A DNA stretch of 64,000 bases from Chloranthus sessilifolius (taxonomy: Eukaryota > Streptophyta > Magnoliopsida > Chloranthales > Chloranthaceae), in assembly GCA_021018995.1 (NCBI GenBank), contig CM037598.1, forward strand, positions 49,615,185 to 49,679,184, given 5' to 3'. Below the pieces are notes generated by a model. That model searched no databases and was not told the origin of the DNA. It saw only the letters and a program-made list of their open reading frames with translations. The position numbers were made by a program, and so were the translations under genes. This document shows, in pieces, positions 1-64,000 of this stretch; positions within the stretch are counted from its first letter, which is position 1, and every line of letters begins with the position of its first letter.

Positions 1-165
1 ATGTTTAATTTTCTTTCCTTTCTCCACCCTATCTGCTTTATCCATAGATAGTTTCCGTTTACCTAAAGTTTTGGCTTTTCCTTTTGCTTTTGGAGTCGAT
101 TTGCTCACTTTCTTAGCAGAGGATTTGGGGAACATAGCAGCCAATGATTTCTCTGCTTTTCCCAT
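1..165 (-). CDS. E1 third ORF, N-terminal 55 codons, partial
   Basis: An open frame begins at the ATG at 165-163 and stays open to the window edge. The product starts MGKAEKSLAAMFPKSSAKK and is very rich in Lys, Ser and Ala, as expected for a basic nuclear-targeting N-terminus. It lies at the place where E4 and E6 carry the start of their long third ORF (MGSKFIDIMAATL and MAKSLKFIDTLAAML), and the start resembles them weakly (small hydrophobic A-A-M/L motif, then basic repeats). The start codon is chosen because a TATA-like element and a roughly 300-base leader precede it. The function is unknown. Confidence 0.55.
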   Translation of the reverse strand, partial: MGKAEKSLAAMFPKSSAKKVSKSTPKAKGKAKTLGKRKLSMDKADRVEKGKKIKH

Positions 166-470
166 TCTAGATTGATGTATAAAAATGCCCAAAATAGATG
201 CTGACACAGAATCAAATTACTAAATGCTAACTAGAGAGAATGGACAGAGAAATATCGAGATCTAGGGTTTATGTTTGAACAAGTTGTTTGCTTGCAGAAA
301 TCCCCCAGATTAAAAGCTGAAATCCTTCTCTGCAAACGCAAATGATCGAACAACAGAGACAAAAGTGTAGTAAGCTTCTTAAATCGTGCAAGGAAAGAAC
401 GAAGTAGGGTTTCAGTGGAAAGAGTTGCTCTGCAGAGAGAGTTTGAAATGAAACCCCGCCGTCGAAAGGG

Positions 471-480
471 TTTAAATATA
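471..480 (-). promoter_or_regulatory. E1 internal TATA-like box before third ORF
   Basis: Minus strand TATATTTAAA, about 305 bases upstream of the third-ORF start at 165. The stretch after it on the minus strand is pyrimidine-rich and free of ATG for a while, as in a leader. It lies just downstream of the motif array at 490-795. The equivalent TTTAAATA boxes in E2 and E3 support a separate promoter, but no transcript evidence is available. Confidence 0.45.
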
Positions 481-489
481 CTCAAAGTT

Positions 490-795
490 AATATCGCAAA
501 GTGCCTTTACGTTTTCAAAAAGTTCCAAAAGAGACCTTTTTACAATTGTGAATGGCATCAGTACCATTCGACAAGTTAACAGCTTCAGAAACATTATTTC
601 ACAAAGGAATTAGCTTCAGAACGGTCTTTTCGAAAAGAAAATGGCTTCAGCACCAACTATTCGAAAAGCAAATCCTTGCTTTCGAACAGTTCCTCACAGA
701 TCCAGAGTCTATTCGAAAAGTAAATTGGACTTTGCGAAAAGAGAATTATTACTTTGCGACTTAACTTTGAGCATGTTTAAACTATGCGAAAAGAG
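490..795. repeat. E1 motif array before third ORF (TTTGCGAAAAG type)
   Basis: About nine related short motifs occur in 300 bases: ATCGCAAAG near 493, TTCGACAAG near 567, TTTCGAAAAG near 628, ATTCGAAAAG near 659 and 711, TTTCGAACAG near 680, TTTGCGAAAAG near 731, TTTGCGACTT near 753 and ATGCGAAAAG near 784. The spacing is irregular, so this is an array of sites rather than a satellite. The same motif fills the U3 part of the E1 LTR (7800-8100). Confidence 0.75.
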
Positions 796-2170: not shown

Positions 2171-2195
2171 GGAAAGATTCATTGATAGCGACCTA

Positions 2196-4808: not shown

Positions 4809-6321
4809 ATCTTTATCATTTTTCTCATTTTTTTCTTCTTCAGTACCACTTTGTTATTTATGATTCTTCCACTTCTCAAAGTGGTAACAGTTTTTACTTC
4901 TTCATGCGAATTGGAAGCTTCTCCAACCATGAACTGTCCTTTGGGATTGTTCAAAGGTTGGCTGGGTAACTTTCCTTCCTCTCTTTTTGCCAAAGTATTT
5001 GAAAGCTGTCCCAATGTTTCTTCAATCTTCTTTATGCTCTAGCTATAAAAATTCACAGTCTGAGTTAAAGATCCTAAATTCTGGAGTGAATTTAGGACTT
5101 GATCTTCAAAAGAAGGGGACCTGGAAGGGGTTTGAAGGGCATCACGCATGTGTTGTTGTGGAATGGGCTGCTGAAAGTTTGGTTTGGCAAAAAAATTCTG
5201 CTGATAAGGCTGTGCAGTTTTGAAAGGCATTTGGTTCTTTGGTTGTTGCTGCTGTTGGGATTGATAATTCCCTTGGTTCCACCTCAAATTGGGGTGTCCT
5301 CTCCATGGATATTCATTCCTGTCAAATGATTGAGCAAAGATGAGCTTGTTCCACCATTAAATCTGGGGTGTAGTGTGGGACATTGGTCAATTGAATGAGT
5401 AGGGGACTGGCATATCAGACATGCCTCCTCTACTCTTGCAACATTTGGATTTTTAAGTGAGTCCATCAATCTATCAAACTTTGTGGTTAAATTGTCCATC
5501 TTTCTTTCCAACTCATTCACCTCATAAATCTTCCCTTTGGTGGGTTGGTGATTGTTCAACCTAGCAGGATTTTCAATATCTCTTGACAGAGATTCCGGTT
5601 GAGTTGAGTTTTCACCAATTACTTCAAACAAGTCCCAAACCTCCTTAACTGTTTTTTGCAAGTAAGTGCCTCCACAGGAGGCATCCACCATATTTTTGCC
5701 TTTTTGATCAATTCCTTGATAGAAGCTTTGAACCAGCTGCCATCTGGGAATTTGATGATGAGGACATTGCGTTAAAAGTTCCTTAAATTGTTCCCATGCT
5801 TCATGGAAAGTTTCAGTTGAGTTTTGTGAGAAGGAAATGATACTTTGTCTCAATTGACTTGTTTTAGACATTGGGAAATATTTGGCTAAAAATTGACATT
5901 GCAAATCATTCCAGGAAGTGATACTATTTGGTGCTAACATAGATAACCATGCTCTAGCTTTATCCTTTAATGAAAAAGGAAAGAGCCTAAGATTGGTTGC
6001 TTCTGGACCAAGTCCAGCTATGTTGAATGTGGTGCAAAGAGCCAAGAATTCATCCACATGTTTGTATGGATCTTCCTTACTCAACCCATGGAAGGAAGGA
6101 AGCATTTGGATAGTTCATGATTTGATCTCATAATTTCCTTCAACAGTAGGAAATTGAATGCAAAAGGGAGAATTATAAGCACTAGGTGCAAAGTAATCCC
6201 TCAAAAGTCGAGGTTCTTCACCCATAGTAGCAGAATTCTGTGTTGTTTGTTTGGTTCGTAGTAGCCTTTCAACTTCTAAATTCAGTGGGACAATCTATTT
6301 GAGAGTCCTCCTACCAAACAT
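4809..6321 (-). pseudogene. E1 gag
   Basis: The capsid-nucleocapsid protein. The likely start is ATG at 6321 (MFGRRTL, conserved as MLGRRSL in E2 and E7), with a later candidate MGEEPRLLRDYFAP at 6225. In-frame stops follow MFGRRTLK and EIKS (near 6114). The frame 6105-5284 carries the Retrotrans_gag domain (FHGLSKEDPYKHVDEF ... FSLKDKARAWL ... LQCQFLAKYFP) and a CCHC knuckle CLICQSPTHSIDQC near 5420-5380. A frameshift near 5300 leads to a Gln-rich stretch (5287-5039), then LRSGRIINN. At least four lesions. Confidence 0.85.
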
Positions 6322-7483: not shown

Positions 7484-7491
7484 TATTTATA
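7484..7491 (-). promoter_or_regulatory. E1 LTR TATA box
   Basis: Minus strand GCTATAAATAGG context, about 310 bases downstream of the motif array and about 840 bases inside the LTR. The same arrangement is seen in every other LTR here. Confidence 0.6.
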
Positions 7492-7799
7492 GCTTTCCCG
7501 TGTCCAGGATGTATATCAACCAATCGAGAGGTTCTCGATCTGTATTGACCAATGGTAGTCGAGCACGGGATCCGTATATGTTACGCCAATCAGAATTCCT
7601 CGATCTGGTTAAGCCAATCAGGTGAAAAAGGCATCAATTCTGTTATGCATTTTGAAAGTTTGTTAGAGTTTCTAGAAGTTCCCGCCAAGTTATTCCCTCT
7701 CTAGGTGCTCACGTGGGGTGGAATATTCCTTCGCTTCATGCTTAGAACCCTCTAGAATGTCCCTAGGTTTTAAAATGCATTGGGACACGTGCAACAGAT

Positions 7800-8100
7800 T
7801 ACTGAATTGCCCTTATTAAAGCTGCGAATCTCCAGAATGCTTCTTCGCACAGCTTAGGGGCCTTTTCGCAAAGTGTTGTGACTCTTGAAGCTCTTTTCGC
7901 AATGTTCTGGTTCTGTTCGAATTGTGTTTTCTTCTTTTCGCAAAGTTCAATCCTCTCTTTGAACAGTTCAGATGCTCTTCGAATGCTACGCCTGGAGTTT
8001 TATTCCTTTTTGCATAGTTTCAGGTTCTTTGCGAAAAGTATAGGTTCTTTGCGAAAAGGACTCTGTAGTGCATTTTTCTGTTCGAATTGTTCCATATTTC
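7800..8100. repeat. E1 LTR motif array (TTTTCGCAAAG type)
   Basis: About twelve related motifs lie in 300 bases of U3: GCTGCGAAT, CTTCGCACAG, two TTTTCGCAA forms (about 7862, 7898), GTTCGAATTG twice, TTTTCGCAAAG near 7936, CTTCGAATG, TTTGCATAG and two exact TTTGCGAAAAG copies near 8031 and 8049. The exact TTTGCGAAAAG also occurs at about 731 in front of the third ORF of the same element. Confidence 0.78.
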
Positions 8101-8331
8101 TCTTCTAGGTCTTTGCTTCTTCTATTCAGACCTTTCAACAGCTGATGAGGTTGTTTCTTCACTTTCTTCCTTTGGATTGACATGGATTGTCATCTTATTG
8201 GCACTTTTATGGTTAAGCCTGTCTTTATTGTTAGCTGCAACATAAGCACTTAAAACACTTATTTAGTTCTCTCAAAGGTCTATCAAGACTCAAGTTCAGG
8301 GGTGAAAACTGGTATTTTTCACTTGTCAACA

Positions 8332-9425
8332 AGGACCCACTAGATCTGAAATCCCCATGGGAGCTTGAGCTGGTAGCCTGGTGACCATGGTGGTGGTAGC
8401 GATATTCTTGTTTTGTCTTGGGCTCCGTGAGGAGGATAGCCTCTGGGATAGTCTGTGACCATTCAAGTGGACAGATTATAGCCTTAGGGTGATTCTAATC
8501 CACCGATCCAAGATGGATCCTTCTTCTTTACACCTGAGCTTGTAGAAGGCTGGTGGGGGATTGTACAGAGGCAGACTCCCCTATATTTGTATAGATTCGC
8601 TATCAGATGATTAGATCTGATCTGGTTATAGAGATTGTAGGCTTGTGATTGGACCATTGTAGCCTCACTCAAGCAATGGACAGCTAGATCGAAGTTTACA
8701 CTCAATCTCTTGTTGGTTCTATGTGTCTGGGATATCATGGTCCTATACAGCCTTAGCCCCACACATAGAGCTTTAGAGGTTGAGGTTCCCTATGGATTCT
8801 TGAGCTGGTAGCCTGGATGAAATAGTGCCTATAATGATTAACTTGTTTTGACCCATCCCTGGATTGTGGTTCCCCTATGGGATAGTCTGTGACCATTTGA
8901 GTGGATAGGTTATAACCTTAAGGGATTGAATCATGGCAGAAGTGATGGGTTGAATCCATTCTCCTTAGTGGTGATAATATAGCCATTGGACAGGACTTCT
9001 ATAACATCAGATCTGAATTTGAGTTACAAAACTCCTCTGTTCTAGGCTCAATATCATACTTCTCACCCTTTTATATTTATTTTCCACACTCCATCCATCC
9101 TCTCACCCCTTTCTATAGTGTAGACATTAGGTTACCTTAGAATACCTAGAATAAGTGACCTTAAACTCCCCTCCTTTTTAGGACTGCTAGATTTGTAGTC
9201 AAATCTGGAGGGACTACTAGAGATGGCTCCTTTGGAGCTGTAGATCACCTTTCCGGGTGGGACAAACTCTTACTTATCAAAACTTTCCACAATGGACCCT
9301 GTATCTTGGAGTTCTAGGATTTCTTAGTTGTGCTGATTCCATCCCATGTTTTACTCTTTCTTTGAATTTTAAATTACTTTTACCACCAACCAATAAAGCA
9401 GGCACACACTCCGAAATCGCCAACA
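8332..9425 (+). repeat. E2 5' LTR, 3' portion only
   Basis: Collinear with 19259-20350 of the 3' LTR. It starts abruptly in the middle of the LTR where E1 begins and ends in CAACA at 9425 before the PBS. The missing first 1.3 kb should lie beyond the far end of E1, left of the window. It contains two copies of a repeated R/U5 module about 434 bases apart (GATAGTCTGTGACC near 8447 and 8881). Confidence 0.85.
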
Positions 9426-9431
9426 AGTTTT

Positions 9432-9445
9432 TGGCGCCGTTGCCG
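9432..9445 (+). promoter_or_regulatory. E2 primer binding site (tRNA-Asp type)
   Basis: TGGCGCCGTTGCCG, preceded by AGTTTT after the LTR end. The next bases TTGAAA differ from the GGGGAA of E1, so the match to tRNA-Asp is cut to about 14 bases. An untranslated leader of about 345 bases follows, in which I see no gene. Confidence 0.9.
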
Positions 9446-9790
9446 TTGAAAGATGATCTATTAGTAGACCCTTAGTTTTTGTATTCTTAGTATTCTTTGC
9501 AAATGTGAATAATTGATACTGCTGATATAATTTTGAACCCTTCTTACAGAGCTAGACAACAGCTGTGAAGGATAGTTGGACTGCAATTGGAGCTTAGCTA
9601 CCTCTATTTGCAAACTCTCTAACTTTTAAAAACTCTGTCTATCTTTCTTGAAAATTCTCTAGCAGTATTTAGAATAGTTGTAAATGTATTCTTTGAATAG
9701 CTATAAATTAGTTAGATAAATTTGTTAAATTGTAAAGTATTCTTTTGCAATGTGCCGGCAAGAAGCTTTCCTTGCTGTTGGTGTGCTTGT

Positions 9791-11667: not shown

Positions 11668-12230
11668 GTGAAAATCAACTTGCCCCTGCTTGAGGCAATT
11701 AAACAGGTCCCAGCCTATGAACAGTTCCTGAAAGACCTCTGCACCCAATAGAGAAAAGTTAGAGGCCATGCGTCTAAAAAGGTCTTTGCAACTGATACAG
11801 TGAATTTTGTATTTAACATATCAATGCCCGAGAAGTTGCAAGATCCAGGGATACCCACTATTCCCTACGTAATTGGAGACCATACAATTGGAAAAGCCCT
11901 TTTAGACCTTGGAGCCAGTGTTAACCTGTTGCCATACAGTGTATATCTGCAACTAGGTTTGGGGGAACTGAAAGCTACCCCCATTCAATGCAGGTCTGGA
12001 GTAATGGAGGTAACTTTTGGACATATGAAAGTTGAGCTGAATGTGTACAACAGTGCAAAGTACCCTCAGATGGACAATGAGGAGAGCTTTGCAGTGGATG
12101 TACTAGAGGAAATTGTAGAAGAGGAATTGCCCACTCTGCTAGAGTGGGGCAACATTGTCAGGAATTTAGTTAAAATTTGGGACATGGTGGAGGAAGAGAG
12201 CCCAGATGTGGTATCAAAAAACATGACCAC
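11668..12230 (+). pseudogene. E2 aspartic protease, internally deleted
   Basis: It carries VKINLPLLEAIKQ, then after a stop near 11750 the core IIP-type segment ending ALLDLGASVNLLPYSVYLQLGLGELKA with the catalytic Asp. The sequence then jumps from LGELKATP straight to IQCRSGVMEVTFGHMKVELNVYN. In E1 and E4 some 55-60 residues lie between these points (VVLQLADRS, DKFYYPTDFLVLD, PVILGRSFLATA). The gap is in frame. The second half of the retropepsin fold is therefore missing and this copy cannot make active protease. Confidence 0.85.
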
Positions 12231-15211: not shown

Positions 15212-15447
15212 CCCACAGTTGTGTCCATGTTGTACTATACTACTTTTGTTTCTTCCATATGTTTTAAGAAATTTTAGTGGTTATGTGGAGTCTGAATATG
15301 TTGAGCTTGATAGAGTTTATGTGGGATTGGTATGATTTATTCTTCTTCTTTTGTGAATTGCTGATTTTCGAATTTGAATGCATATTGTTTGAATATTTTT
15401 GATGAGTAGGCTGCACTAACTGTATTGCCCCTGTTTAGTACTAAGCC
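15212..15447 (+). other. E2 spacer after pol
   Basis: AT-rich non-coding stretch between the integrase stop and the motif array; I see no gene or repeat in it. Similar spacers follow pol in E3 and E4 (33904-34317). Confidence 0.5.
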
Positions 15448-15640
15448 CTCGCGCATTCCAAATTGAGATTTGGGAAGCTCTCGCGCAATTCACATAGCAC
15501 ATTCATCCCGCTGTCGCAAGCTTCAACAAATGCTGCAGAGTCTCTCACGCACTTCCATCCCCACCATCCATCATCGTGTGATTCAGTTATCTCATGATTC
15601 CCTTACCCAGCTGCGCAAGTCAAATGCATTTGTCATTTCC
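15448..15640 (+). repeat. E2 motif array before third ORF (CTCGCGCA type)
   Basis: CCTCGCGCATT near 15448, CTCTCGCGCAATT near 15479, CTGTCGCAAG near 15511, CTCTCACGCACTT near 15542 and CTGCGCAAG near 15611. CpG is dense here and rare in the surrounding DNA. The motif is the same as that of the array in the E2 3' LTR (18120-18570). The TATA-like box of the third ORF follows about 100 bases downstream. Confidence 0.72.
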
Positions 15641-15818: not shown

Positions 15819-16061
15819 ATGGCAGATGACAAGCCGAATGCGCTGCCTAACAAGTTTTACCCGATGTGGTTGGACCCGCCAGCACCTAAAGAGCCGGATC
15901 CCCTACAACCCCTCTGGGATGAATACGAGGAGGTTCTGCAAATCCTGGCTAAGGAGGAGGAGGAAAAGCTCCAGCCGCAGAAGAAAAAGCAAATGATAGA
16001 GCCATCCCCTGCCCCCTCCACTCCACCCCCTCCCCCACCTTCTCAACCCCCTCACCCCTGA
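15819..16061 (+). CDS. E2 short third ORF (80 aa)
   Basis: An open 80-codon frame. The product begins MADDKPNALPNKFYPMW, contains LWDEYEEVLQILAKEEEEKL (acidic, helical, probably coiled), a short basic stretch KKKQ and a Pro-rich tail. E3 has an 82-aa homologue with the same start, the same LWDEYEEV core and the same basic and proline-rich tail order, so the frame is probably real. It sits where E4, E5 and E6 have their long third ORF, with which I see no clear similarity. I do not recognise the family and no function can be assigned. Confidence 0.6.
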   Translation: MADDKPNALPNKFYPMWLDPPAPKEPDPLQPLWDEYEEVLQILAKEEEEKLQPQKKKQMIEPSPAPSTPPPPPPSQPPHP

Positions 16062-18119: not shown

Positions 18120-18570
18120 GCCTCGCGCAGCTAACCCAAGCTTTAGAGGACTGAGGAGAAATATGCCTCGCGCAGTCCAACTGAGCATCCCAAGACTCTA
18201 CAACAACTTCTCGCGCAGATGATTGACTGAAGAGCTTCAGAAGCACAAACTCGTGCACCTGTCGCGTAGTCGCCGCAGGATGCAATTATCAGAAGAGAAC
18301 TCCTCGCGTAGTTCTCGCGCCATTCAAGAAGAAAGCATCCTTGCGAAGGCAAAGCCATCTTGGCAAAGATCAATTAAGACATGAAACCTCATGCAATTCA
18401 GAACTCAGTAAAGCCTCGCGAAGTCCAGTGAAGAGAAGTGCTCGCGAAGCTCTTGCGCTATTCAAATCTGTCCTCGCGAAGATCAACCCAGCGATCGAGC
18501 AGCTACCTCGCGACTGCTTGAGCTCCAACCCCGCGACATTAGAGGCTTCGATGTCTACTCAACCTCGTGA
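18120..18570 (+). repeat. E2 LTR motif array (CTCGCGCAG / CTCGCGAAG type)
   Basis: Around fourteen copies: CTCGCGCAG at 18122, 18167 and near 18210, CTCGTGCAC near 18250, GTCGCGTAG near 18260, CTCGCGTAG and CTCGCGCCA near 18302-18323, CTCGCGAAG near 18414, 18441 and 18472, and CCTCGCGACTG near 18507. All point in the same direction. Core TCGCG. It ends about 270 bases before the TATA box. Confidence 0.8.
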
Positions 18571-21919: not shown

Positions 21920-22340
21920 TAAAAAAATAGCCTATCGACAGGTTCTATGAACATCTCGATAGGTTCAGAGAGTGCTCAATTTACTTTTCGACTGGATCAA
22001 GAGGCTGTCCTATAGTGTGAATTAATTCTCGACAGGTGTTGAAGGTGTAAAATTAGTTGTTGATAGGATCCATATAGATTTTGAGAGGTTCTGCAGGCTT
22101 TAGTTGATCTCTCGACAGGTTCTGAGTACCTATCGAGAGGTTCTACGGACCTCCGAAAGTGATCATTTAGAAGAAGGAACCTTTCGAGAGGATTGACTGA
22201 GAAGCCCAAAAGTACCTATCGAGAGGTTCTGTGAACCTCTCGAAATGTATTCATTTAAAATATTCAACCCGTCGATCGGATTGCATGGACCTCCTGAGAG
22301 GTTCAGCAGTTTTTAACTCCTCGACAGGTTGGGACAACAT
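21920..22340 (+). repeat. E3 motif array before third ORF (TCGACAGGTT / TCGAGAGGTTC type)
   Basis: At least fourteen motif copies: TATCGACAGGTTC near 21933, CTCGATAGGTTC near 21955, CTCGACAGGTG near 22028, CTCGACAGGTTC near 22112, TATCGAGAGGTTC near 22132 and 22217, TTTCGAGAGG near 22187, CTCGACAGGTTG near 22319 and others. Several are inverted pairs. The unit at 22214-22245 is TATCGAGAGGTTC, then 3 bases, then GAACCTCTCGA. The same inverted unit recurs in the LTR of E3. Confidence 0.82.
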
Positions 22341-22600: not shown

Positions 22601-22849
22601 ATGGCGGATGACAAGCCCATTAAGCTGCCAACGAAATTCTACCCAGTTTGGGAAGACCTACTACCACCAAAAGAGCTTGACCCATTACAATTCCTGTGGG
22701 ATGAGTATGAGGAAGTACAAAGGATTTTGGCTGAGGAGGAAAAGAAAAAGAGTAAGAGAAAGAAGAAGAAACAGAAGATAGATCCACCTGCATCTTCTCT
22801 CCCACCCTCATCACTCCATCCACCACCTGCTCAGCAGCCTTCTCCTTAA
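22601..22849 (+). CDS. E3 short third ORF (82 aa)
   Basis: Homologue of the E2 80-aa frame: MADDKPIKLPTKFYPVWEDL, core DPLQFLWDEYEEVQRILAEEE, basic stretch KKKSKRKKKKQK and a Ser/Pro tail. The upstream open frame extends to 22397 without similarity to E2, so the start at 22601 is preferred. The reading frame has survived although the pol of the same element has decayed badly. That could mean selection on this frame or chance in a short ORF. Function unknown; the acid-base layout and KKKK tract would suit a nuclear or DNA-associated protein. Confidence 0.58.
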   Translation: MADDKPIKLPTKFYPVWEDLLPPKELDPLQFLWDEYEEVQRILAEEEKKKSKRKKKKQKIDPPASSLPPSSLHPPPAQQPSP

Positions 22850-25177: not shown

Positions 25178-25755
25178 CAAAGCAGAGATGTCGAGAGGTT
25201 TTGAGAGCAAGGAATGAAGCAGTCGAGAGGTTGAACATGTGTATAAGAAGCTGTCAAGAGGTACTGAGTTGAAAGATGAAGATCTCGAGAGGTTCCAACT
25301 CCAACCTCTCGGTTGGAGTTACAGACGTGGATCCTGTCAAGAGGATACTTCAAGGTGCAGATGAAGTTGAGAGGTTTTAGATACTTATCGTGAGGTTCAA
25401 CTGAACCTGTCGAGCAGTGCAAGATAACCTATCGACAACTTACTTGAAGCAACGCTCATTCTCGCGAGTATTGAGCCAACCTGCCAAGCACTTCACTAGA
25501 GAATGTATAACAAGTCGATAGGTTGATTGTAACCTGTCGGCATGATGAATGCAGAACTGGACAACAAGATTAATTTAATTTCCAATCCTATCAAGAGCTA
25601 CTCCCAGTCCTGTCGAGATGCTGCCAAACCTGTCGACTAGCTACTTCAATCTTGTCGAGAAGTCTACGAAGCTGTCGAAATCCAATGCAACCTATCGATG
25701 TGAATATAAAGTAGATAGAGAACCTGTCGAGAGGTTCCTTGAACCTCTCGACAAT
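25178..25755 (+). repeat. E3 LTR motif array (CTGTCGAGAGGTTC type)
   Basis: About eighteen copies, e.g. GTCGAGAGGTT near 25189 and 25218, CTCGAGAGGTTCC near 25283, CCTCTCGG near 25305, CCTGTCGAGCAG near 25407, AGTCGATAGGTT near 25512, CCTGTCGAG near 25613 and CCTGTCGAGAGGTTC then GAACCTCTCGA as an inverted pair at 25722-25753. The inverted pair matches that of 22214-22245 with only a few changes. The array ends about 280 bases before the TATA box. Confidence 0.82.
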
Positions 25756-27557: not shown

Positions 27558-27744
27558 CGCTGTCCTAATGCCTTAGCTAATAGGAGAGTGAACCCTAATT
27601 TTTAGGGCAGATGTGGCAATGTTATAACCCTTGGATGCCTTGGGATGTGTGCCTTGAGATCAGGGCCTCAGGATGTGCGCCCTAGACTTGAGAATCCCTA
27701 AAAGGTCCTTGAGTTAAGATTGAGAAGTGGAGAGCTCAAGCTTC

Positions 27745-28470
27745 GCAGGGCTGCCTTTTGCTTTTTAGTTCATTCGCGCAGCTACTTCGTGCTTCGCGAG
27801 GTAACTTTTGCTCACTAATTCCTTTGCATGGCTTGCAGAGTCCTTGCGAGGTAAGAATTGGCTTGGAAGGTTGTTCACTCACATAGGTGGACTTTGTATT
27901 GTCGCGTAGCTGCTTTGGCTTTGCATGCACTCACGTAGAAGAGTTTATAGTGCTTGGCTAGCTCGAGCGGCCGAGCTTCTGAATTTTCTCTCATGAGGGT
28001 GTTGCAAGGATGCCTTTAAATCTTGCTCGGTTTCTTGTTGAAGGAATAACAAAGCTCTCTCGGTAGAGGGTTGAGTTATTAAATGCATGAGAACTGCGCA
28101 AGGACATTTCTGGAGCTCTCTCTCCTCTGGACCATGCGAGGACTTTGCGAGTTTGTTATTGTTCTTTGTGCAGATTAGCTTCACGAGATAGCACGTGCGG
28201 TAGACATGCAACTTGTTCCTTGCGAGAGCTTTACGAGCTAGATTTCTGAAGGTTTAATGCGTGAGAGCTTCGAGAGTTCACAGAGTGTTGGTTGTAGCTA
28301 AAGTGTGTGGCTGCTATGCGAGAGAGTTCTTTGGGGCAATTCCTTCACTGAGCTGCATGAATTCATCACGAGTTCCCTTGTGCTACATGTAATATCTACG
28401 CAAGAATGCTTTGCTAGTGATTTGAATAGCGCGAGGCAGCACCTCTACTGTGCGAGATAACACATTTTCT
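27745..28470 (-). repeat. E8 LTR motif array
   Basis: Many related CpG motifs, seen on the plus strand as TTCGCGCAG and TTCGCGAGG near 27770-27800, TTGCGAGG near 27844, TGTCGCGTAG near 27900, ATGCGAGGACTTTGCGAG near 28134, TTGCGAGAGC near 28219, ATGCGTGAGAGCTTCGAGAG near 28258, ATGCGAGAG near 28316 and GCGCGAGG near 28430. Sense core CTCGC(A/G). Confidence 0.72.
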
Positions 28471-34317: not shown

Positions 34318-34795
34318 TGCTTTCTCGCGAGGCTCTATGGCCTCAATTTCACATTCGTGCGCCAGTTGTAGGCTTTCTCGTAGGGTTATGATAGGAATTT
34401 TGTTCCTCGTGAGAACCTCACGAGTGAAGCACCTGCGGAAGCCTGATATTGAGCCTCGCGAGGCTCTACTTTGTCCGCAACATTGAGCTGCATGAAAAAT
34501 GAAAATCACACATTTTGTTCCTCGTGAGAGCCTCACGAGAAAATTTCTGAAGCTCTTACTGAAACATACCTCACGAGGCCCTTGGCTCACTGAATATATT
34601 TTCCTCGCGAGGACCTTTGCTTCAGCTGAGCGAGGATAAACATGCCATCTCGTGCAACTCAGATACAACATCAACTCCGTGATGGACCTCACGAGACTCT
34701 TGAGTCCCTTAAAAGGTATTTCTCGTGAGATGGCATTTATACTGCACGAGAAGATTTTTTGCCAGGCGAGAACCACACGAGGCACGGGTTCATCC
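34318..34795 (+). repeat. E4 palindromic motif array before third ORF
   Basis: Perfect inverted repeats: CTCGTGAG-AAC-CTCACGAG at 34406-34424, CTCGTGAG-AGC-CTCACGAG at 34521-34539 and the 16-base palindrome GAGCCTCGCGAGGCTC at 34451-34466. Single sites include CTCGCGAGGCTC near 34324, CTCACGAGGCC near 34570, CTCGCGAGGACC near 34605, CTCACGAGACTC near 34689, CTCGTGAGATG near 34721 and CACACGAGGC near 34772. About fifteen sites in 475 bases. Confidence 0.82.
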
Positions 34796-35183: not shown

Positions 35184-37514
35184 ATGGGTTCTAAATTTAT
35201 TGATATCATGGCTGCCACGCTAAGCCCTTCACCAACTGGCAGCCCTGTGGCCACTAGGAAATCTATGAGGATTGCATAGGCCTCCACCGTGGAGATCTCT
35301 GAGGTACCAACACCATCTGTGGAGCCCCATGTGGAATTAACTAAGAAAAAGGCTGCCCCTATAAAGAAGACCAAATCTATGGCCTCTAATGCCCCTGCTC
35401 TAAAAAAGAAAGCTGCCCCTAAGAAGAGGGCCAGAGGCCACCCACCTGCTAAAAGCCCTGAGAAACCAAAGAAAAAACAAAAGAGTGGCAAGGAAGTGGC
35501 CCCTGAGATCCCTGTGGTTGTCCAAGATGATGAATCACTCAGAATCCCCTTTGAGTTTGTGGCTGCTATTAAGCTTGAAGCTGAGACAACCTTTGATAAG
35601 GCCTTCTTTGAGGAAGAGCAAGAGACAGCTGCATCAATTAAATTCCTAACTAAAACCTCACTACTCTCCCTTCTCAGGCCCCCACTACAGCTAGTCTTCT
35701 CTAGACTAGTGCAACTATTTTACCAGAACATAACGGTGAAGACTAGAGATGATAGGAACCCTGCAATGCTGGTATTGATAGATGATTTTGAGATTTAGTT
35801 AACCAAGCAGCCATTGCTGAGATTCTTGGTATTGCAGCTAAATACAGCCCAGAGTGTGGCTTGGGTCCTCCTTTGATAGCCCCAATCCCAAAAATTGCCA
35901 AGGAGCTCACTGGAGGGATCACAGCCTCTAGGGTATCAATAAGCAAGAGACACTTGGACCCTAGTCTGAAGTTTATGGATGGGTGCTGAGAAGGAATGTC
36001 TATTGCTCTGGGCACCAACAGGAGAGGAGGTTCCCCATTGCTGATGCCCTCTACTCCTTCCATTGCAACCACTACATAGATACTGCAAAGATCATATTTT
36101 AAGGAATGAAAGATATAAATGAAAAGGGGAAGAGGGAGCAGAAACCCCATTCCTTACCCTACTACAGGCTCATTACAACCCTGTTGCAGCTGGGAGGCTA
36201 CCACTTCAACATGAATGAGGAAACTCTCATTTGACCCTCACAAGTGTGGGAAGAAGCTGTGGGGCATTAGTGGTAGCTTGAATGAGAAGAAGGAGGAGGA
36301 GGAGGAGCTACAAGCTCAGCCAGCCCCCACAATTCAAGAGGTAGCTGCTACTACCTCTGTTGCCAGCTCAGCTGCTCTTTCTCAAGTTTCTACTTCCACA
36401 GTGCCAACCACCTCCAACCCCTCCACCTACCCATATACCTACACCACCCCCATCTACCCAACCCTTAACCTTAGCAGCAACATATGTTGCTGCTACACAC
36501 ATTAAAACTATTCCAGAAATACCCCCAATTACATTTACCACTGCCTCCACCCAAACTGAACCTGAACCTGAACTTGAACCTGACCCTATCCAGCCACCCA
36601 TTATTGCCTCACCTTTGGAACTCATTTTCCCATAGCCCCAACCTACAACCCTACCTGCAGTAGCCACATGTGATGCTGCCACATATGTTGAAAACATAAT
36701 CCCTACGTCCTCAAAAGCTTCACAAATAGACCAAGAAATAATAGACCTTATCCTATCTGAATCTGAAGTCCCCCAGCCTATACCCTCTACTTTCACCATA
36801 CCCATACCATCATCCATCCTTTCATCTTCATCCACACAATCCCAAGTGCTGACTGACCCTTCTTCCACTGCTAAACATACCATACTACCTGCGTCTTTCA
36901 ACCCCATGCCTCCATACTCAACCCTCCTAAGGGCAATGAAGGAAAATGCCTACATCAAGAGAGATGTGATTAGAGGCGTGGCAGACCTCAAAACCACAGT
37001 TAGGCAGACCCTCCTAGATAAAATCAAGTTTTTGGAACTCACTCATAAGATGGAGAAAAAGAGACTCAAGCGTGGTTGGAGAGAAACACTACTAAAATAT
37101 AATGAAGAGAAGAATAGAGCTGTTGGAATGGAGGATGTGATCAAGAATCTGCAGGTGGCCCTGAGATTAGTGGAGGAGAGGGCCAATGATTATGCTAGGA
37201 CTGTTGTAGCATTATAGAAGACCTTATCTAATATTGGTGATAGAGATTTAGTAGAAGTAGCTGCCAAACTCTTCACTACTGTTGCCCTTCCCCTGCCAAT
37301 TGCCCTAAAACCCAAAGAGCCAAGAAAGATCAAGCCTGGCATCAACATAAAGGAGCCTGCTTCAAAGCTAGAGCTAACTCCTAAGAAGAGAAGCGGCACC
37401 AAGCAAAAGAGGACTACTTTAAAGAGATCCCAGTCCACTGTTGTTGCTCTCAAGAGAGCAAAAGGCAAAGGTGCCCAAGACAAGATTGATGCAGCAGAAA
37501 ATTCAGATGATTAG
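35184..37514 (+). pseudogene. E4 long third ORF (Transposase_32-like domain plus coiled coil)
   Basis: Starts MGSKFIDIMAATLSPSPTGS; a stop at about residue 32. A strongly basic Lys/Ala/Pro region (PAPALKKKAAPKKRARG type, nuclear-signal-like) follows, then PFEFVAAIKLEAETTFDKAFFEEE and RLVQLFYQNITVKTRDDRNPAMLVLIDDFEI, which resemble the plant putative transposon protein domain (Transposase_32 type). After frame changes come GGSPLLMPSTPS / PYYRLITTLL fragments, a Thr/Pro-rich linker (36350-36850), then a helical segment MPPYSTLLRAMKENAYIKRDVIRGVADLKTTV and a probable coiled coil, ending in a basic tail at 37514. At least five lesions. Family by memory of motifs only. Confidence 0.7.
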
Positions 37515-39814: not shown

Positions 39815-40450
39815 GTTATCTCGCGCAGTCACAAGTGTGCCTTGTGCTGTTTAAGTCTGCAGAAAAGTCTTCTCGTGCAGCTGATACATGCAGCACAAAT
39901 GAACTTGCTCGAAACTCACGCACTCAGTGAAGGAGTGGTCTCAGTGATTTACTTCGTGCAATAGTCACGCACTTCTTATGCTCTCAACACAAAGTCTTCG
40001 CGAAGTTCTCATGCACCACAACCTTCAGAAATCTAACTCGCGATGCCCTCATGATGATCAAGCCTCACATAGCCATGCGCGCAGTCTCATAAGATCAATT
40101 TGCATTAAAGAATTCAAGAAAGCTCGCGTATAGTTCAAGAGGAGAGAGAGCTCCAGAAATTCCCTCGCGCAGCTCTTGCGCACATAAAAGCCTAAAGCTT
40201 TCTGCGCGAGTAGTGCTACCCAATTCACAAGGAGTAGAGTGAGATTGAAAGTCTTCCACACGAGACCCTCGCAACAGGAAGTACTTGAAGCTCTACTACG
40301 CAAGTAGAGCCAATGTAATGCAAACTCTTCCTCACGAGTGCATTAAAAGCCAAAGCAGCTGCGTGACCAATTAAAGGCCTTCTGCGAGAGTGATAAACCA
40401 TCCAAAAGTATGACCTCGCAATCACTCGACAACTTCGCGAATGAATTAGA
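39815..40450 (+). repeat. E4 LTR motif array
   Basis: CTCGCGCAG near 39818, CTCGTGCAG near 39872, CTCACGCACT near 39914, TCTTCGCGAAG near 39996, ACTCGCGATG near 40037, CTCGCGTATAG near 40121, CCTCGCGCAGCTCTTGCGCAC near 40162, TGCGCGAGTAG near 40203, CACACGAGACCCTCGCAAC near 40257, CTCACGAGTG near 40332 and CTTCGCGAAT near 40433. Some sites match the E4 third-ORF array (CTCACGAG), others match the E2-type CTCGCGCAG. Confidence 0.75.
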
Positions 40451-45249: not shown

Positions 45250-45850
45250 AACCCAAGCCTCGATTGGTTGGAGCTTCAGATTATGGATATTGAGAGGTTC
45301 TCGAGTGGCTAGATTAGCTCTTGAAGCTTGCTCGATAGGCTGGAATGGTTCAGATTATGCAGCTCAAGTAGATAAGGCTCCAGGTATTGTATCTCGAGAG
45401 GCTCTCGATAGGCTGGCATTCTTTAATTTGCAGCTCGATAGGATATTTCAGAAGCTCCTGGAGAGACTGTCGATAAGCTGAATTGCTTGAAATTGTAGCT
45501 CGACAGGCTGAATTTCCTCAGGCTTTAGCTGCTCGATTGGATAAATTACACATGTTGTCAACTGCTCGAGATCAGCTTGAGATGGATTTCTGAAGGTGCA
45601 TCTGCTCAAGAACCACTCAAGCAAATGTTATTTGAAAAAACTAATCCTCTAGAGATGTGCTCGAGATGATTTTCTGAACCTCAAAACCACTCGAGAACTA
45701 CTCAAGGTTGAAAATCTGAAGCTATCTTTGCTTGAACTAGTCTAGGTAGCTCGAGATGCTAATTTGTTGCAGGCCTGAAGTTCTCAAGATCTGCTCGAGC
45801 TTAATTTGCTGGGGATTTAATTGCTTGAGAGCTGCTCGAGCTTGCATTTC
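45250..45850 (-). repeat. E7 LTR motif array (CTCGATAGGCTG / CTCGAG type)
   Basis: On the plus strand: CTCGATAGGCTGG near 45331 and 45413, CTCGAGAGGCTCTCG near 45403, CTCGATAGGATA near 45434, GTCGATAAGCTG near 45469, CTCGACAGGCTG near 45500, CTCGATTGG near 45532, CTCGAGAT near 45564 and 45660, and a series of GCTCGAG sites to 45841. About fifteen. The core is TCGA as in E3 but the flanks differ (GGCTG instead of GGTTC). Confidence 0.75.
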
Positions 45851-52285: not shown

Positions 52286-52479
52286 CTCTGTCCATAAGGC
52301 TTTGGCTCTGAAGAGATTAACCCTAATGTTTCTAACAGACGTGGAACTGCTTCAACCCTTGGATGCCTGGAGATATGCACCTCGAAATCTGTGCCTCAGG
52401 AAGTGTGCCCTAGCCTTGGGAAATTCCTAAAAAGTCCTTCAATTAAAATTGAGAAGTGGAGAACCCGAGCTTCGTGGGG

Positions 52480-53060
52480 CTGACATCTGCATTAGTTTCA
52501 TTCATGCAGTTGAGAGCCATCACGGAGTTGCCTTTTACTGGTGAGAAGTGCTTACTTGCGCAGTCAATCTTTAGTTTGTCACAAAGTTCCTTTGAGCTGC
52601 CTTGCTGTCGTGGAGATGATCTAGAGCACCAGGACTCTTCACACAGATAGAGCTTCAGAAGCACTCTCTCTCGCTGAGTGCTCATGCAGTAAGGCGCCTG
52701 TGCTTGCGTAGTAACCGATTAGGCTCTAGGGTGCGCGAGAGCTATGCGAGAGAAATTTTGGGTGTCTCTCTCTTCTTTGGTTACGCAAGAACTCCATGAG
52801 GTGATTGATTGTTCTTTGTGCATATGAACTCGTTATGTTCTGGGTGCAACTGCTTTGGGCTCGTTCTTCGCGAGAGCTTCGTGAGGACAAATTATGAGAG
52901 TTTTAAATTGCGACATCTTTGTGATGTCTTTTCTATTCTCCTCTTGACTGCGTGGCCGATCTGAACGAGGGCAGCTTTCACTGCATCATTAGCTTCGTGA
53001 GGGGGATCCTCAACTCTGTGAGATGATTCTTTTGTCACTCTGAGGCATTGCATTTGCTGT
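52480..53060 (-). repeat. E6 LTR motif array
   Basis: Seen on the plus strand as TTGCGCAGTC near 52556, TTGCGTAG near 52704, GCGCGAGAGCTATGCGAGAG near 52733, TTACGCAAG near 52782, TTCGCGAGAGCTTCGTGAGG near 52868, TTCGTGAGG near 52993 and TCTGTGAGATG near 53016. More decayed than E2 or E3, with many CG sites turned to TG or CA. Confidence 0.65.
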
Positions 53061-57431: not shown

Positions 57432-57439
57432 TTTTTATA
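57432..57439 (-). promoter_or_regulatory. E5 LTR TATA box
   Basis: Minus strand GATATAAAAACCC, in a context shared with E2 (CTAACCCTAATGCGC just upstream). Confidence 0.6.
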
Positions 57440-57614
57440 TCAGTGGGGGCAGCGCATTAGGGTTAGGGAACCCTAATTTTAACAATGCCACGTGGCCTAA
57501 CAGTGATCCTTGGATGCATCGGGGCGCGTGCACGGAGATTTTAGCGTAGGAGTGTGTGCCCTAATCGCTGGAAATTCTCAGAAGGTCCTCTGCTGAAGAG
57601 ATGGAAGTTTAGGT

Positions 57615-58350
57615 TCAGAGCTTCGCTAGGTAGTTGTAGTTTCCCAGACTTATCACGTGGTAGCTCTTTGCTCTTTGCTAGGATGATTTGACATTGAAGC
57701 TTCAACCGTTGTGAGGTTGCCTTGGTTTGCTCTTTAGGCAGTCGCGCGGTAGAGAATTACGCTCTCGCTGGATGAGGGTTCGCGAGGTTGAGTAGAAAAC
57801 ACAGTCTCAGATGTCGCGGGGTTGAAGTTCAAGCAGTTGTGAGGTTGCTCGGTCTTCGCTGGGCTGATCTTCACGAGAGTGAATTTGAACAGTGCGAGAA
57901 CTTCGTGAGCACTTCTCTTTACTGGACTTCGCGAGTTACCTCGCGAGGCTTTAATGAGTTTTGAACTATGCGAGGTTCCATGTCTTAATTGATCTTTGCG
58001 AGGATGGCTTTGCCTTTGCCAGGATGTTTTCTTCTTGAATGGCGCGAGAACTATGCAAGGAGTTCTTCTTCTGATAATTGCATCCCGCGGTGACTGCGCG
58101 ATAGCTGCGCGAGGAATCTTCTGAAGCTCTATCTCTTCATCCGTTCTGAGCGAATTACACGAGATTGAGAGAGGTCTACTTAGAACTGTGCGACACTGCA
58201 CGATGTGTTCTACTCTTGAGCTTCGCGAGAGCTGCGCGAGTTTGAGTTTCTGAAGCTCTTCAATCACTCATATGCGCGAGAGGTTGTTGTAAAGTCTTGG
58301 GAAGCTCAGTTGAACTGCGTGAGGCATATTTCTCCTGAATCCTCTAAAGC
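57615..58350 (-). repeat. E5 LTR motif array (CTCGCGCAG type)
   Basis: Plus-strand view: AGTCGCGCGG near 57739, TTCGCGAGG near 57779, TCGCGGG near 57813, TTCGCGAGTTACCTCGCGAGG near 57928, TTTGCGAGG near 57985, GGCGCGAGA near 58041, TGCGCGATAGCTGCGCGAGG near 58094, TTCGCGAGAGCTGCGCGAG near 58221, ATGCGCGAGAGG near 58272 and GGGCGAGG near 58361. About eighteen sites, nearly the same motif as E2, its close relative by LTR sequence. Confidence 0.78.
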
Positions 58351-58422
58351 TTGGGTCAGTTGGGCGAGGCTCATTTCAGGTCTGGATTCAGAGTTCATTC
58401 TTCTAAGGGATTTCTGGTGCCA

Positions 58423-60092: not shown

Positions 60093-60125
60093 ATACCCCC
60101 AAACCTATGAGGAGCAGTGTCCTCA
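60093..60125 (-). promoter_or_regulatory. E5 small hairpin plus internal PPT-like tract
   Basis: Minus strand TGAGGA-CACTGC-TCCTCA perfect stem (60125-60108), then ATAGGTTTGGGGGTATGG. Confidence 0.68.
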
Positions 60126-60323
60126 CTGGTTCAAAGTGAATGTGCAGTAGAACTATTGAGGCTAAAAGAAAAGGAAAGAATAGGGAACAAAACACACAAT
60201 AGGCAAAGCAAGATAGTAAAGACAAGGGAAAAGTCTATGAAGAATTAGAAATGTACAAAATACAAGAAAACAAAAGTAAAAGAAATAGAGAAAATCCTAA
60301 GTACAATCTAGTTAGAATCTGTC

Positions 60324-63300
60324 TCAAAACTTGTCCCATCCCATCTTCTTTGCATGTTCTTGCAGGAGAGCCTCTTCTTCTTTCTTCTTTCGTTCCCTCT
60401 CTGCCTTTCTTTGCTCGGGAATTTTGGGTATGGTTGGAGCCCTGACCCTCATTTTTCTCTTCTTTGGTTCAGGAGGGATCTCTGAGATTTATTAGTGGTT
60501 GGCTCAGGGGGTTTGGTGGGAGATTTTCCTTTGGGGCCCTTACCTTTGGAGGCTTGCCCTTGCTGAGGCAGAGGGGGAATAAGAGGTGGTTGGGCTGGTG
60601 CTGGCTCAGGAGGGGCAACAGGGGATTCAGCTTTTGGTTGCACCTGAGGCAGGAGAGGACTTTTCCCTTGTGTAGGTTTAGGGGGAGGCACAGAAGATTT
60701 ATCCTATTCTCTGGCTGAAGAATGGCCGAGCTCTTCCCTTTCACTGGCTGGCTTTTTGGTGGGGCCTCTTCAAACTGGGCAGATTTGGCTTTACCAATTT
60801 TCAAGGAGGTAATTGGGGGAGTAGTCCTCTTGGAAGTAACTTTCCTTCGCTGAGGAAAAGATTGTGCAGCAAGGCTTGATGAAGGAGCAACAACAGTAGG
60901 TTGGGCACTGGGATCCGTAGGTGGTGCAGCATCAGATTCTAAGTCCGAAGGAAAAAGCACAGTGGGATCCAATCCAAGGGCAACAGCAGCCTTTCTGCGT
61001 TCCTCTTTGGAAAGTAGGCTACCATGGGGATCATCCTGAGCAGAAGCTCTGGTGACCTTTGGAGTTGGGGATGGAGGGGCCGGCCTTTTGCCTTTTGGGG
61101 CTACAGTGGCTCTTTTAGAAGTGGGCTTTTTCTTGGAAGGAGTGCGTTTTCTTTTGGGAGCAGGAGAGGGAACAGGGGGGGCACTGAGAGAGGAGCAGGA
61201 GCTGCAGTAGGGATTTGAGCAGGAGCAACAGGTTGTGTAGGTACTGCAGAAGGAACTGCAGTAGGCATTTGAGGAGGAACAGGAGGAGGTACCGGAGTTG
61301 GGGCTGTGGGAGGTGGGGGAACAGATTGTGTAGGTGTTGGGGTAGGGGCAGTGGAAGAAGATGGGGCCTCAGGGGAGCTGTGGCGAGAGGGGTGGGCTGT
61401 ATGGGTTGGGAAAGTAGGAAGGCAACTCTCTGTTCCAAGATTTCAATTTTTTTGTTAGCCCACAGGAGATTGGTATCTGCAAGCTCCTTACTGAGTCGGT
61501 TGATCTCCTGAGCATTGTTCAATTTTTTCTCTAATAGCCTGTTGTGCTTTTTCGCCCTCTGCATTGACCTTTTCAATCTCAGTAGTCATTCTGTAATATG
61601 TTGTCACAGCCTTGTTCGCATTTAGGGTCTCCAAAATTGCCTCCCACCCTTTGGAAATATCTTTCAGCTGTTCGCAGTGAGCAAGCTTCAAGTCACTAAG
61701 TTTCTGTAGCAAGGGGTATTCGATGGCTTGGCGGAGTTGGGCCATGCCATTGAGAACATCCCTCTTGATATAGGGATTGTCCCTCATGGCATGGAGGAGG
61801 GTGAAGTAGGGGGGGGTGTAATAGGAGTGTCTGGGTAAGATGGGTAGAAATGGAGTGGAAGAAGTAGAAGGGGATTGATCCTGGGGGGAAAGAGTGGGTG
61901 GTGTAAGGATGAAGTCAAGCGAAGAGGTGGAAGTGGCTGGTGTAGTCTGTGTTGAATGGTTAGTGAATTGAAGAGGGGGTGGGAGAAGAGGTGGAATGGA
62001 AGGTATGGGTGGAAAGTGAAAGGAAGGAGGGGCAGTGGATGTGGAGGGGTCTAGGTAAGGGAAGAATGGAATGGTGAAGGGTCGAAATGGAAGGGATGGG
62101 GTTGAAAAGAGGTGGGGTTGAAGGGGAAAGGTGGATGGGAATGGAATGGGGTCAGTTTGGGTAGAAGTGTTGATAAATTGAGGTGGAGGTAGTATTAGAG
62201 AGGGTAGGATAGGTGGAGAGGGAAAGGTGTGGTAGGGTATGGTGCCATGGAGGGGGAAGGGTGGAGGTAAGTCAATGTGGGTGAGGTCTGTTGGAACTGT
62301 GGAGTCAGAAGTGGAGGGGGGTTGGGTCAATGGGGTGGTAGGAGGTTGTGTAAGGATAATGGGGGTTGTCAATGTTTGAAGGGTGGATTGTATGTTGGTG
62401 ATGTCCGTTTGCATTTGGGCTTGGGTCTGTGTGGTGTTGGAGAGTTGGGTTTGGATGCCATATATGAGGGAAAGGCTATGGGTAAGGGTATCAGAGGTTG
62501 GTTGAGGTGGAGTATGAGGATAGGAAGGAACAAGTTGGAAAGGGGAAGTGTGGGCATGATGGAAAGTGGTAGGGGGAGAAGGTGAAAGGGCTTAGGAGTA
62601 ATGTGGTGAAGGGAGTGGTGAATCTGGGAGAGCGATGTCATGGGTGGGCAAGGTATCAAGCAAGGTAGTCATGAAGGCTTGATACCCTGAAGTGGTGGCT
62701 AAGTTAAAGTCCAGATCATGGAGAGGTTGGACTAAGGGTTGGCCAATATGGGGTGTGTCTGTGGGAATGACAGGGGAGGTGGAAGTGGGTCAAGATGAGG
62801 CAGGGGTATTGTGAGAGATTTTCTTTTTAAGGTAGGTTATCAAGGGAGGGCTGTCGGGGTTAAGGTCAGAGGATGTCGGAGGTACTGGGGCTGTGTATTG
62901 AGGTAAGGTGGGTGAAGGTGGAGTGTTGTCCTGGGGTGCAACACTTTCTTCCCAGGTACGGATAATAGTGGGAGGTGGAATGGAAAAAGGAGATAAAAGA
63001 GGGAAAGGGAGAGATGGAATAGGTGAAGAAGTTAGTGGAGAGACAAGTGTGGGGGATGGAGGGATTGCTGCAGAAGCAGAGGTGACAGAAGCTCACGCCA
63101 CCTTCTTTGGGGCAGGGGATTTAGCCTTCTTTTTGGGGGCAGGGGTGGCCTTTGCCACAGCAGTTTCCCCTGCCTGCTCAGAAACAGCCTGAGCTTCAGC
63201 GTTCTTCTTCTTCTTCTAGGGATCCATTAGACTTCTGCTGATCCCCCATTGTCTTTCGGCAAAAGTGGTGGGAGTGAGGTCAGCAGATAACTCTCCCACT

Positions 63301-64000
63301 GGTATCTTGTACCCTCCCTTCAGAAGTAGTCTGGTGATGAGTCTCCAATAGGGGAGAGTGTGGATTTTCTTTTGCAGCCCCAGCTTCACCATTGTATCCT
63401 TCATAGCCTCGAAGATCAACCATGCAGCATTAAATCCATGGCCCAGAGAGAAGGAATAGAGAGCATCCGCAATTGGTGTCCTCCTTTCTTGCTGATGGCG
63501 GAGCAATAGATATTCTTCCTTCGCATTGGATTGATGAACAACAGTTTGGGCTCCAAATCTCTTCTTCTGATTGAGTCCCCTGTGGCCTTTAAACCTCTTG
63601 TAATGGCCTGGGCAATTGTGTCAATGGGGGCACTCATAGGGGCACCATAACCGCAGTTGGGATCAAAACTGGCAGGGATGCCCATGACTTCAACAATTAA
63701 CTCTGGGCTAAGCAGCATCTCAAAATTGTCAACTAATGCAAGGAGGCCTGGCTGCCCCTGTGTGTCTGGTCTGACCCTAAGGTGTTGGTAAAAGAGTTGC
63801 ACTAACCTAGGATAGGCTAGTGCAAGGATCATTTACATCAAGGGGAACAAACCAGCCTTGTGCAGGAACTCAATGGCGGGAGCTGCCAACGGCTCAGATT
63901 CAAAGAATGATATATCAAAAATGGCTTCAGGTTCTAAGGGAATAGAAATGAGGAGCTCAGAGGGAGTAGAGTAATCAGGTGCATTTGCAGCCACTTCAGG
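60324..64000 (-). pseudogene. E5 long third ORF (Transposase_32-like domain, P-rich linkers, coiled coil), 5'-partial
   Basis: The minus strand enters with LLISIPLEPEAIFDISFFESEP, like the E4 PFEFVAAIKLEAETTF segment; a stop near 63833. Then RLVQLFYQHLRVRPDTQGQPGLLALVDNFEMLLSPELIVEVMGIP (63800-63650), RRRDLEPKLLFINPMRRKNIYCSA, IADALYSFSLGHGFNAAWLIFEAMKD and PYWRLITRLLLKGGYKIP to 63220 give the best copy of the Transposase_32-like domain. A very long Pro/Thr/Ser linker (about 63100-61830) follows. Then TPPYFTLLHAMRDNPYIKRDVLNGMAQLRQAIEYPLLQKL and a coiled coil continue across a frameshift near 61550 to LANTN / KIEILEQRVAFLL. Pro-rich and basic tails end at RKKKEEEALLQEHAKKMGWDKF, stop 60324-60326. 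At least six lesions. Confidence 0.72.

Follow-up and report, generated by a model that had tools for sequence, protein, structure and literature searches.

Clustered CpG-containing motifs at the promoters of nested Athila-type retrotransposons in Chloranthus sessilifolius: candidate binding sites of a family-specific regulator

What, if anything, reads the dense clusters of short CpG-containing words that some retrotransposons carry in their long terminal repeats (LTRs) and again before an internal gene? The question is raised by a 64,000-base stretch of Chloranthus sessilifolius DNA (G000:C15:49615185-49679184, here the window; genome of 2,168,743,587 bases, 2.17 Gb), which is filled by at least eight nested Athila-type (Ty3/gypsy) retrotransposons or their LTRs. 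A preliminary description of this DNA had reported one array in the U3 part of the LTR and a second ahead of the third open reading frame (ORF3), and had proposed a sequence-specific binding protein that changes with the element. It gave no coordinates; the numbering E1 to E8 was assigned in the present analysis, and other loci are cited by L number. The motif clusters first surfaced in an unbiased word count of the window. Our tentative answer, held with somewhat less than even confidence and read from sequence, is that the arrays may be bound by a regulator specific to each family and probably encoded by the element, with the ORF3 product as the leading candidate.

A common core in the U3 and internal arrays

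All eight LTRs show enrichment of a TCG-NNN-RG core on both strands of their U3, and a CpG-anchored comparison showed the arrays of different families to be variants of this one core. Of 220 TCG in U3, 108 have an RG separated from them by three bases downstream. For the remainder of the window the corresponding figure is 27 of 254, and there the gaps from 0 to 8 give 26-46 of the 254 TCG. Before ORF3 the same spacing was found for 14/22 TCG in E1, 19/30 in E3 and 14/23 in E4. None of 1000 dinucleotide shuffles reached the observed core count in 10 of 12 regions, the remaining two being the E7 U3 (3/1000) and the E2 pre-ORF3 region (614/1000). With extra genome copies included, 23 of 24 U3 regions were enriched (0/300 shuffles as good), the exception being the 3'LTR of E1 (84/300). 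Observed/expected CpG was 0.88 in eleven array stretches and 0.20 outside them. The core and the dyad classes described below were defined on the same arrays, the controls being alternative gap lengths, the remaining window sequence, shuffles and extra copies; an expectation-maximisation motif finder was too permissive and was not used.

Each family has its own version of the core. The U3 array in the 5'LTR of E1 (7845..8085, minus strand) is built of CTTTNCGNAAAG, and that of E3 (25189..25755, plus), with 18 sites, has AACCTNTCGANAGGTT as its word. In E4 (39819..40445, plus, with one more site at 39658) the words are CTCGYGCAG and CTCGCGAAG, in E5 (27740..28455, minus) TCGCAAGG, TCGCGAAG and related types, and in E6 (45260..45840, minus) TCGAGCAG and TCGATAGG. 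The array in the 3'LTR of E2 (18121..18540, plus, with one more site at 18618) consists of TCGCGNRG and class II dyads; the array of E8 (57620..58240, minus) is homologous to it and likewise of TCGCGNRG type, while that of E7 (52470..53005, minus) is the weakest among the eight. Two motif-rich inserts of about 127 and 71 bases in the E8 U3 (57439-58421, minus) are missing from the E2 U3 (17920-18843, plus), so whole blocks of sites are gained or lost by arrays. Measured from the LTR TATA box, the nearest edge of the array is 184-354 bp upstream, excluding an E1 dyad at 7520-7524 that is about 30 bp from TATA. The far ends lie about 590-890 bp before TATA, with one E4 site at 1.0 kb. The presence of dense U3 arrays is thus borne out in every LTR, and their earlier placement at about 200-380 bases before TATA is replaced by these limits.

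A strong second array was found upstream of the third ORF in E1, E3 and E4. The E1 array (460..792, minus) contains CTTTTCGAAAAG and CTTTTCGCAAAG, with 14 TCGNNNRG sites, and an internal TATA-like box (471..480, minus) stands between array and ORF3. The E3 array (21925..22330, plus) again consists of AACCTNTCGANAGGTT and includes 18 of the 19 sites in its region, and the E4 array (34320..34785, plus), with 14 sites, is of CCTCRYGAGG type. For E2, which had also been credited with a second array, such an array is unsupported: the region contains 1 core site among 10 TCG, plus some look-alikes that are not enriched (CTCGCGCA and similar, 15447..15630, plus). Enrichment before the third ORF was likewise seen in 0/8 E2-type copies (E2, L014, L015, L017, L018, L023, L029, L031), each with 1-2 core sites, a count reached by 124-239 of 300 shuffles. 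Words of 7 and 8 bases do, however, recur between the E2 pre-ORF3 region and the U3 of E8 and of E2 more often than in shuffles. The truncated or mosaic copies L026, L027, L028 and L030 were left out of the extra-copy shuffle comparison; L032 overlaps L033, and L041 is the same copy as L036/L020.

The half-sites occur singly or as dyads. Our first CpG-anchored logos were symmetric by construction because both strands had been pooled, and dyads were therefore re-tested by strand offset. The class I dyad, CYNNTCGANNRG, gave 36 hits (18 palindromic sites), 34 of them in E1, E3 and E6 regions and 2 elsewhere; all 20 hits of the class II dyad, CYTCRYGARG, fall in E2, E4, E5, E7 and E8 regions, and this class is common to both E4 arrays. 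Two departures concern class I: the sole class I dyad of the E1 U3, at 7520-7524, adjoins TATA outside the CTTTNCGNAAAG array, and the pre-ORF3 region of L047, from a class II family, contains one class I dyad. Individual words are more restricted still. CTTTNCGNAAAG has 12 hits (6 palindromic sites), all within the two E1 regions and none elsewhere in the 64 kb, and 19 of the 20 hits of TCGANAGGTT lie in the two E3 regions, with 1 in the E1 U3.

Inverted motif copies might instead act as RNA, forming hairpins that feed or decoy small-RNA pathways. Four of five folded arrays beat their dinucleotide shuffles (z = -4.28, -4.04, -4.47 and -2.36, the last with 6/200 shuffles as good), and the parts of PMC5311732 used here describe Sirevirus LTR palindromes as hotspots of small-RNA mapping. 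However, the E2 U3 array folded no better than its shuffles (z = -0.94). Folding also requires complementarity, not a fixed TCG-NNN-RG core across families, and that core is common to E1, E3 and E2 although their U3 arrays give no self-BLAST match to one another. We consider the RNA account improbable.

Agreement between the two arrays within families

When position weights from the eight window U3 regions were applied, the pre-ORF3 arrays of E1 and E3 found their best fit in their own U3, with leads of 4.6 and 3.8 nats per site over the runner-up, and word-sharing agreed in both cases. The E4 pre-ORF3 array fitted the E8 U3 (-0.74 nats per site) slightly better than its own (-1.10), and had more words in common with the E8 and E2 U3 than with its own. 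For E4, the idea that both arrays use exactly the same motif was accordingly rejected in favour of a class-level match. Site permutations, which treat sites as independent, gave p values of 0.0005, 0.0005 and, for E4, 0.0015 versus the mean of the others.

With extra copies added, the scoring matrix showed family blocks. The pre-ORF3 arrays of E1 and L024 fitted their own and each other's U3, and those of E3, L053 and L054 fitted E3-family U3, so that the E1/E3 family pattern is replicated outside the window. Arrays of ORF3-type copies fitted the E8 and E2 U3, and E4 fitted E8, then E4. L053 has 24 and 20 core sites in its two arrays and 1 elsewhere in 7.4 kb, and in L054 a foreign E2-family LTR with CG-type sites sits between two E3-type arrays; both were selected by their match to the E3 pre-ORF3 region, and only their U3 constitutes a fresh test. 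For six of seven pre-ORF3 arrays the best score came from the same LTR family, and for the seventh, E4, it came from E8, but with relatives added none of the seven had its best score on the U3 of its own copy. Matching is therefore within families, not demonstrably within single copies. Same-family replicates are not independent events, which leaves four independent comparisons (E1, E3, E4 and E8). Across these, the two-array match is strong in the E1 and E3 families, class-level only in E4, and weak, although of the right class, in the ORF3-carrying E8 family; in E2 it is absent. Of the proposal that each element shares one motif between its arrays and differs from the others, what survives is a family-level rule in E1 and E3 and a common dyad class in E4.

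Could the agreement be a by-product of sequence being duplicated locally, or transferred by gene conversion, between U3 and the stretch ahead of ORF3? The pre-ORF3 arrays of E1 and E3 contain small tandem repeats that speak for such a process, as do the motif-rich E8 inserts missing from E2. Yet no alignment between U3 and pre-ORF3 regions exceeded 30 bp, and in the 11 regions with enough sites flank identity was near chance beyond about 6 bp from the core. The motif copies lie in unrelated flanks, and duplication therefore does not explain the arrays. Duplication or conversion of the flanks, raised in advance as the observation that could overturn the idea of a binding protein, was rejected as the cause, and we regard the by-product account as very improbable.

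The third ORF as candidate binder

E1, E4 and E8 encode ORF3 products of a single protein family, with basic stretches resembling nuclear localisation signals (NLS). In E1 the lysine-rich start lies at 1..165 (minus), with the remainder outside the window in L033. ORF3 of E4 (35184..37511, plus) is split over several frames, with a basic N-terminus and a block homologous to E8 ORF3, and that of E8 (60472..63832, minus) is broken, with a PF20167-like domain (via alignment to L036), a proline-rich middle and a basic tail. An unbroken 303-residue stretch in L036, a close relative of E8, matches PF20167 (Transposase_32) with E = 7.5e-10 and has a basic N-terminus that we read as NLS-like; among shorter pieces from its relatives, L037 gave a weak PF20167 match (E = 0.021) and L035 none. 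E4 and E8 pieces are 42-46% identical, and the E1 piece in L033 is 30% identical to L036 (E = 3e-19). A genome search with the L036 stretch gave 130 scored matches at 88-100% identity, query included, from 46,353 first-look candidates. Among the 30 best-scoring, again including the query, 19 have no stop in the PF20167-like stretch, although the ranking favours whole copies. Outside the genome, three ORF3 protein queries found no homologues, searches of PDB and NCBIfam gave nothing significant, and scans of viral contigs gave none, or chance high-GC matches.

Not all copies carry this gene. E2 has, in place of a PF20167 ORF3, a short MADDKP ORF (15819..16058, plus), and E3 has a similar one with a lysine/arginine run (22602..22846, plus; 63% over 60 residues between the two proteins). 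L035, L036 and L037 each have a Retrotrans_gag frame with ORF3 after it within 727-772 bases, and for E8 the gag start, located in L034, is 2.5 kb ahead of the end of the window; these short distances leave no room for pol, and four E8-family copies thus keep gag and ORF3 without pol. Elsewhere in this LTR family, copies have the end of pol and the short MADDKP ORF in place of ORF3. LTR-to-LTR length in this family (L014-L023, L029, L031, L034-L037) is about 10.3-11.3 kb for both the gag-pol-MADDKP and the gag-ORF3 type, with one ORF3-type LTR pair (L019) 13.5 kb apart. The coexistence of two copy types within one LTR family makes a division of labour between them possible. In the parts of PMC2410132 used here, most A. 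thaliana Athila elements are without pol and some keep gag and env, with purifying selection acting on env (omega about 0.2-0.3).

These observations suggest the following model. A sequence-specific, probably dimeric protein would bind the clustered sites at the LTR promoter of each Athila family and, in several families, also at the internal promoter before the third ORF. It would recognise TCG-NNN-RG half-sites, with the dyad spacing of CYNNTCGANNRG in E1, E3 and E6 or of CYTCRYGARG in E2, E4, E5, E7 and E8. A core common to all, varied from family to family, agrees with a single family of DNA-binding proteins that has diverged. The third-ORF product is a reasonable candidate, because it has a basic NLS-like N-terminus and a PF20167-like domain and because divergence in ORF3 runs parallel to dyad class: E1 (class I) is further from E4 and E8 than these are from each other (n = 3). 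Were ORF3 the binder, as is most likely under this model, its product might act specifically on its own elements, as an activator or anti-silencer, and drive its own gene as well.

Apart from the absence of per-copy matching, several findings weigh against such a role. The main difficulty is E3, which like its copy L053 has two strong arrays, yet only a short MADDKP ORF and no PF20167 ORF visible; an ORF3 product acting in trans from another copy would account for this. The Pfam scan recognised no DNA-binding domain in ORF3, the PF20167 score of L036 (39.4 bits) is below the Pfam cut-off of 45, and the E1 piece alone had neither a Pfam match nor a significant match to a 65-residue E4 piece. 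Pre-ORF3 arrays are weak in the ORF3-carrying E8 family: three of its copies were matched by 49, 4 and 29 of 300 shuffles, and 12 ORF3-type upstream regions (including one repeat of the L036 copy) contain 2-6 sites each, matched by 4-86 of 200 shuffles. Pooled, the 150 TCG of these 12 regions give 45 RG at gap 3, 64 at gap 2 and 39 at gap 6. The E8 pre-ORF3 region itself (in L034) has 3 core sites by simple count, all of TCGCG type. In a few other arrays a different gap reaches the level of gap 3, with 23/32 at gap 0 in the E6 U3 and 15/23 at gap 2 in the E4 pre-ORF3 region, which we attribute to partial palindromy of the motif or to several purines at its end. The E1 U3 has 10 core sites in the 5'LTR (7490-8327, minus) and 2 in the 3'LTR (L033:5028-5869, minus), though the two LTRs were presumably identical at insertion. 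Across seven homologous array pairs, with 2-6 sites in register per pair, core sites are not clearly better conserved than their surroundings: identity is lower in three (E2/E8, 0.80 vs 0.88; E4/E5; E4/E6), equal in E5/E7 and higher in E4/E7, E4/E8 and E2/E4. Finally, only four families have both regions available for comparison.

Two other kinds of binder have to be weighed. Host transcription factors or chromatin proteins might bind the arrays, with families recruiting different paralogues for tissue- or stress-specific expression. Strong U3 arrays in E2 and E3, where no PF20167 ORF is visible, agree with this, and the CTTT/AAAG ends of the E1 motif resemble what we take to be DOF cores. A motif comparison in Sireviruses, in the passages of PMC2829016 used here, recovered mainly stress-related host factor sites. 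One core in all families, with family variants at two distant sites, is less natural for unrelated factors, and we rate host binding as somewhat unlikely. Alternatively, the binder could be another element-encoded protein, such as the short MADDKP product, gag or integrase. E3 and L053 do retain two strong arrays together with a MADDKP-type ORF bearing a long lysine/arginine run, but the similar MADDKP proteins of E2 and E3 accompany different motif classes and the E2-type copies lack an enriched pre-ORF3 array, which makes this a rather improbable solution.

Matched arrays give Athila ORF3, whose role is described as unresolved in passages of PMC7264820 and PMC12844716, a concrete and testable candidate function, the reading of a known DNA word. 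A broader version, which we find possible but doubtful, is that Athila third ORFs are rapidly diversifying self-specific activators or anti-silencers, each reading the CpG dyad arrays of its own family both in the LTR and at the promoter of the ORF itself; in at least one family, gag-pol copies without ORF3 and gag-ORF3 copies without pol would share LTR and motif as a two-part system.

Element structure and comparison with known systems

The layout was established from pol and gag domains, primer sites, polypurine tracts and self-alignments. E1, on the minus strand, is inserted into the 5'LTR of E2 and runs on leftward past the window edge into L033. E2 occupies 8328-20351 (plus), E3 starts at 20361 (plus) and E4 at about 30149 (plus). 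E5, E6, E7 and E8 are represented by minus-strand LTRs, with a pol piece at E5, a gag piece at E6 and part of the third-ORF region at E7 and E8. A Ty3/gypsy pol, an extra polypurine tract before the 3'LTR and a PF20167-type ORF are all present, and we presume the lineage name Athila and the primer-site assignment. In E2, reverse transcriptase and RNase H precede integrase, which is the Ty3/gypsy and not the Ty1/copia order. The second polypurine tract, TAGGTTTGGGGG, lies about 1.7 kb before the 3'LTR at 16254, 23248 and 37804 (plus) and 60096 (minus), in E2, E3, E4 and E8; similar tracts also occur inside pol at 11958 and 30491. Such an extra tract is known in Athila4/Calypso (PMC2829016, in part).

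Two further observations concern these elements. An Rfam match to the plant snoRNA snoR71 (5750-5855, plus; 58.9 bits, gathering threshold 40) is antisense within the gag region of E1. A 3922-bp contig deposited as Streptomyces clavifer (L001, BMWJ01000030.1) resembles a piece of a plant Athila-type element and is therefore probably plant contamination of the bacterial assembly; its U3 carries 10 same-strand copies of ACTAATGGA, a word without CpG, 42-202 bp before the TATA box.

Among Ty3/gypsy elements, sunflower Athila 14 is similar in having a PF20167-like sense ORF with a nuclear localisation signal after gag-pol, and the passages of PMC11728184 used here mention neither motif arrays nor a link to regulation. 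Retand (passages of PMC11963269) carries tandem repeats and an antisense TRP28 ORF (PF04195) between pol and the 3'LTR, and so differs in the antisense ORF, the PF04195 domain and the tandem repeats. Full-text literature searches, mostly outside subscription papers, returned no report of such arrays in Athila among titles and abstract openings.

VANDALs, whose VANC proteins had been offered as the precedent, are Mutator-like DNA transposons. The likeness lies in a dense, family-specific short motif in the element's own non-coding regions; in the passages of PMC5735166 used here, related VANC proteins have different targets, with motifs YAGTATTAY and AGTTGTCC/AGTTGTAC. Those motifs, however, have one orientation (VANC21) and lie inside tandem repeats, and the protein contains DUF1985 and DUF287, whereas the motifs of the window occur on both strands in unrelated flanks, with a few short tandem repeats and none of larger units. 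Pfam scans of the ORF3 pieces, which did not cover every ORF of every copy, yielded PF20167, matches below significance or no match at all, and no DUF1985. The resemblance to VANC would thus be one of function only. If the model is correct, sequence-specific self-regulation would extend beyond VANDALs to a large class of plant LTR retrotransposons.

The RM boxes of Sireviruses, which the preliminary description did not name, are a closer published precedent. According to the parts of Bousios 2010 (PMC2829016) used here, the LTR of these Ty1/copia elements likewise holds, upstream of TATA, high-copy clusters of motifs with dyad symmetry, most of them containing CpG, with one consensus per element and divergent flanks; the motifs occur again before the env-like gene, and the internal copies are missing in the four elements without env. 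Among our elements E1 and E4 have both internal array and env-like ORF, E2-type copies have no array, the E8 family has a weak one and E3 a strong one with only MADDKP seen. The Sirevirus core is CGG-CCG in 12 of 13 cases, in contrast to TCG-NNN-RG here, and the window elements, which are Ty3/gypsy, have both dyads and half-sites and two dyad spacings, with the two-array match compared against other families. An element-encoded reader of the Athila arrays, if there is one, would also suggest a reason for the unexplained Sirevirus motifs.

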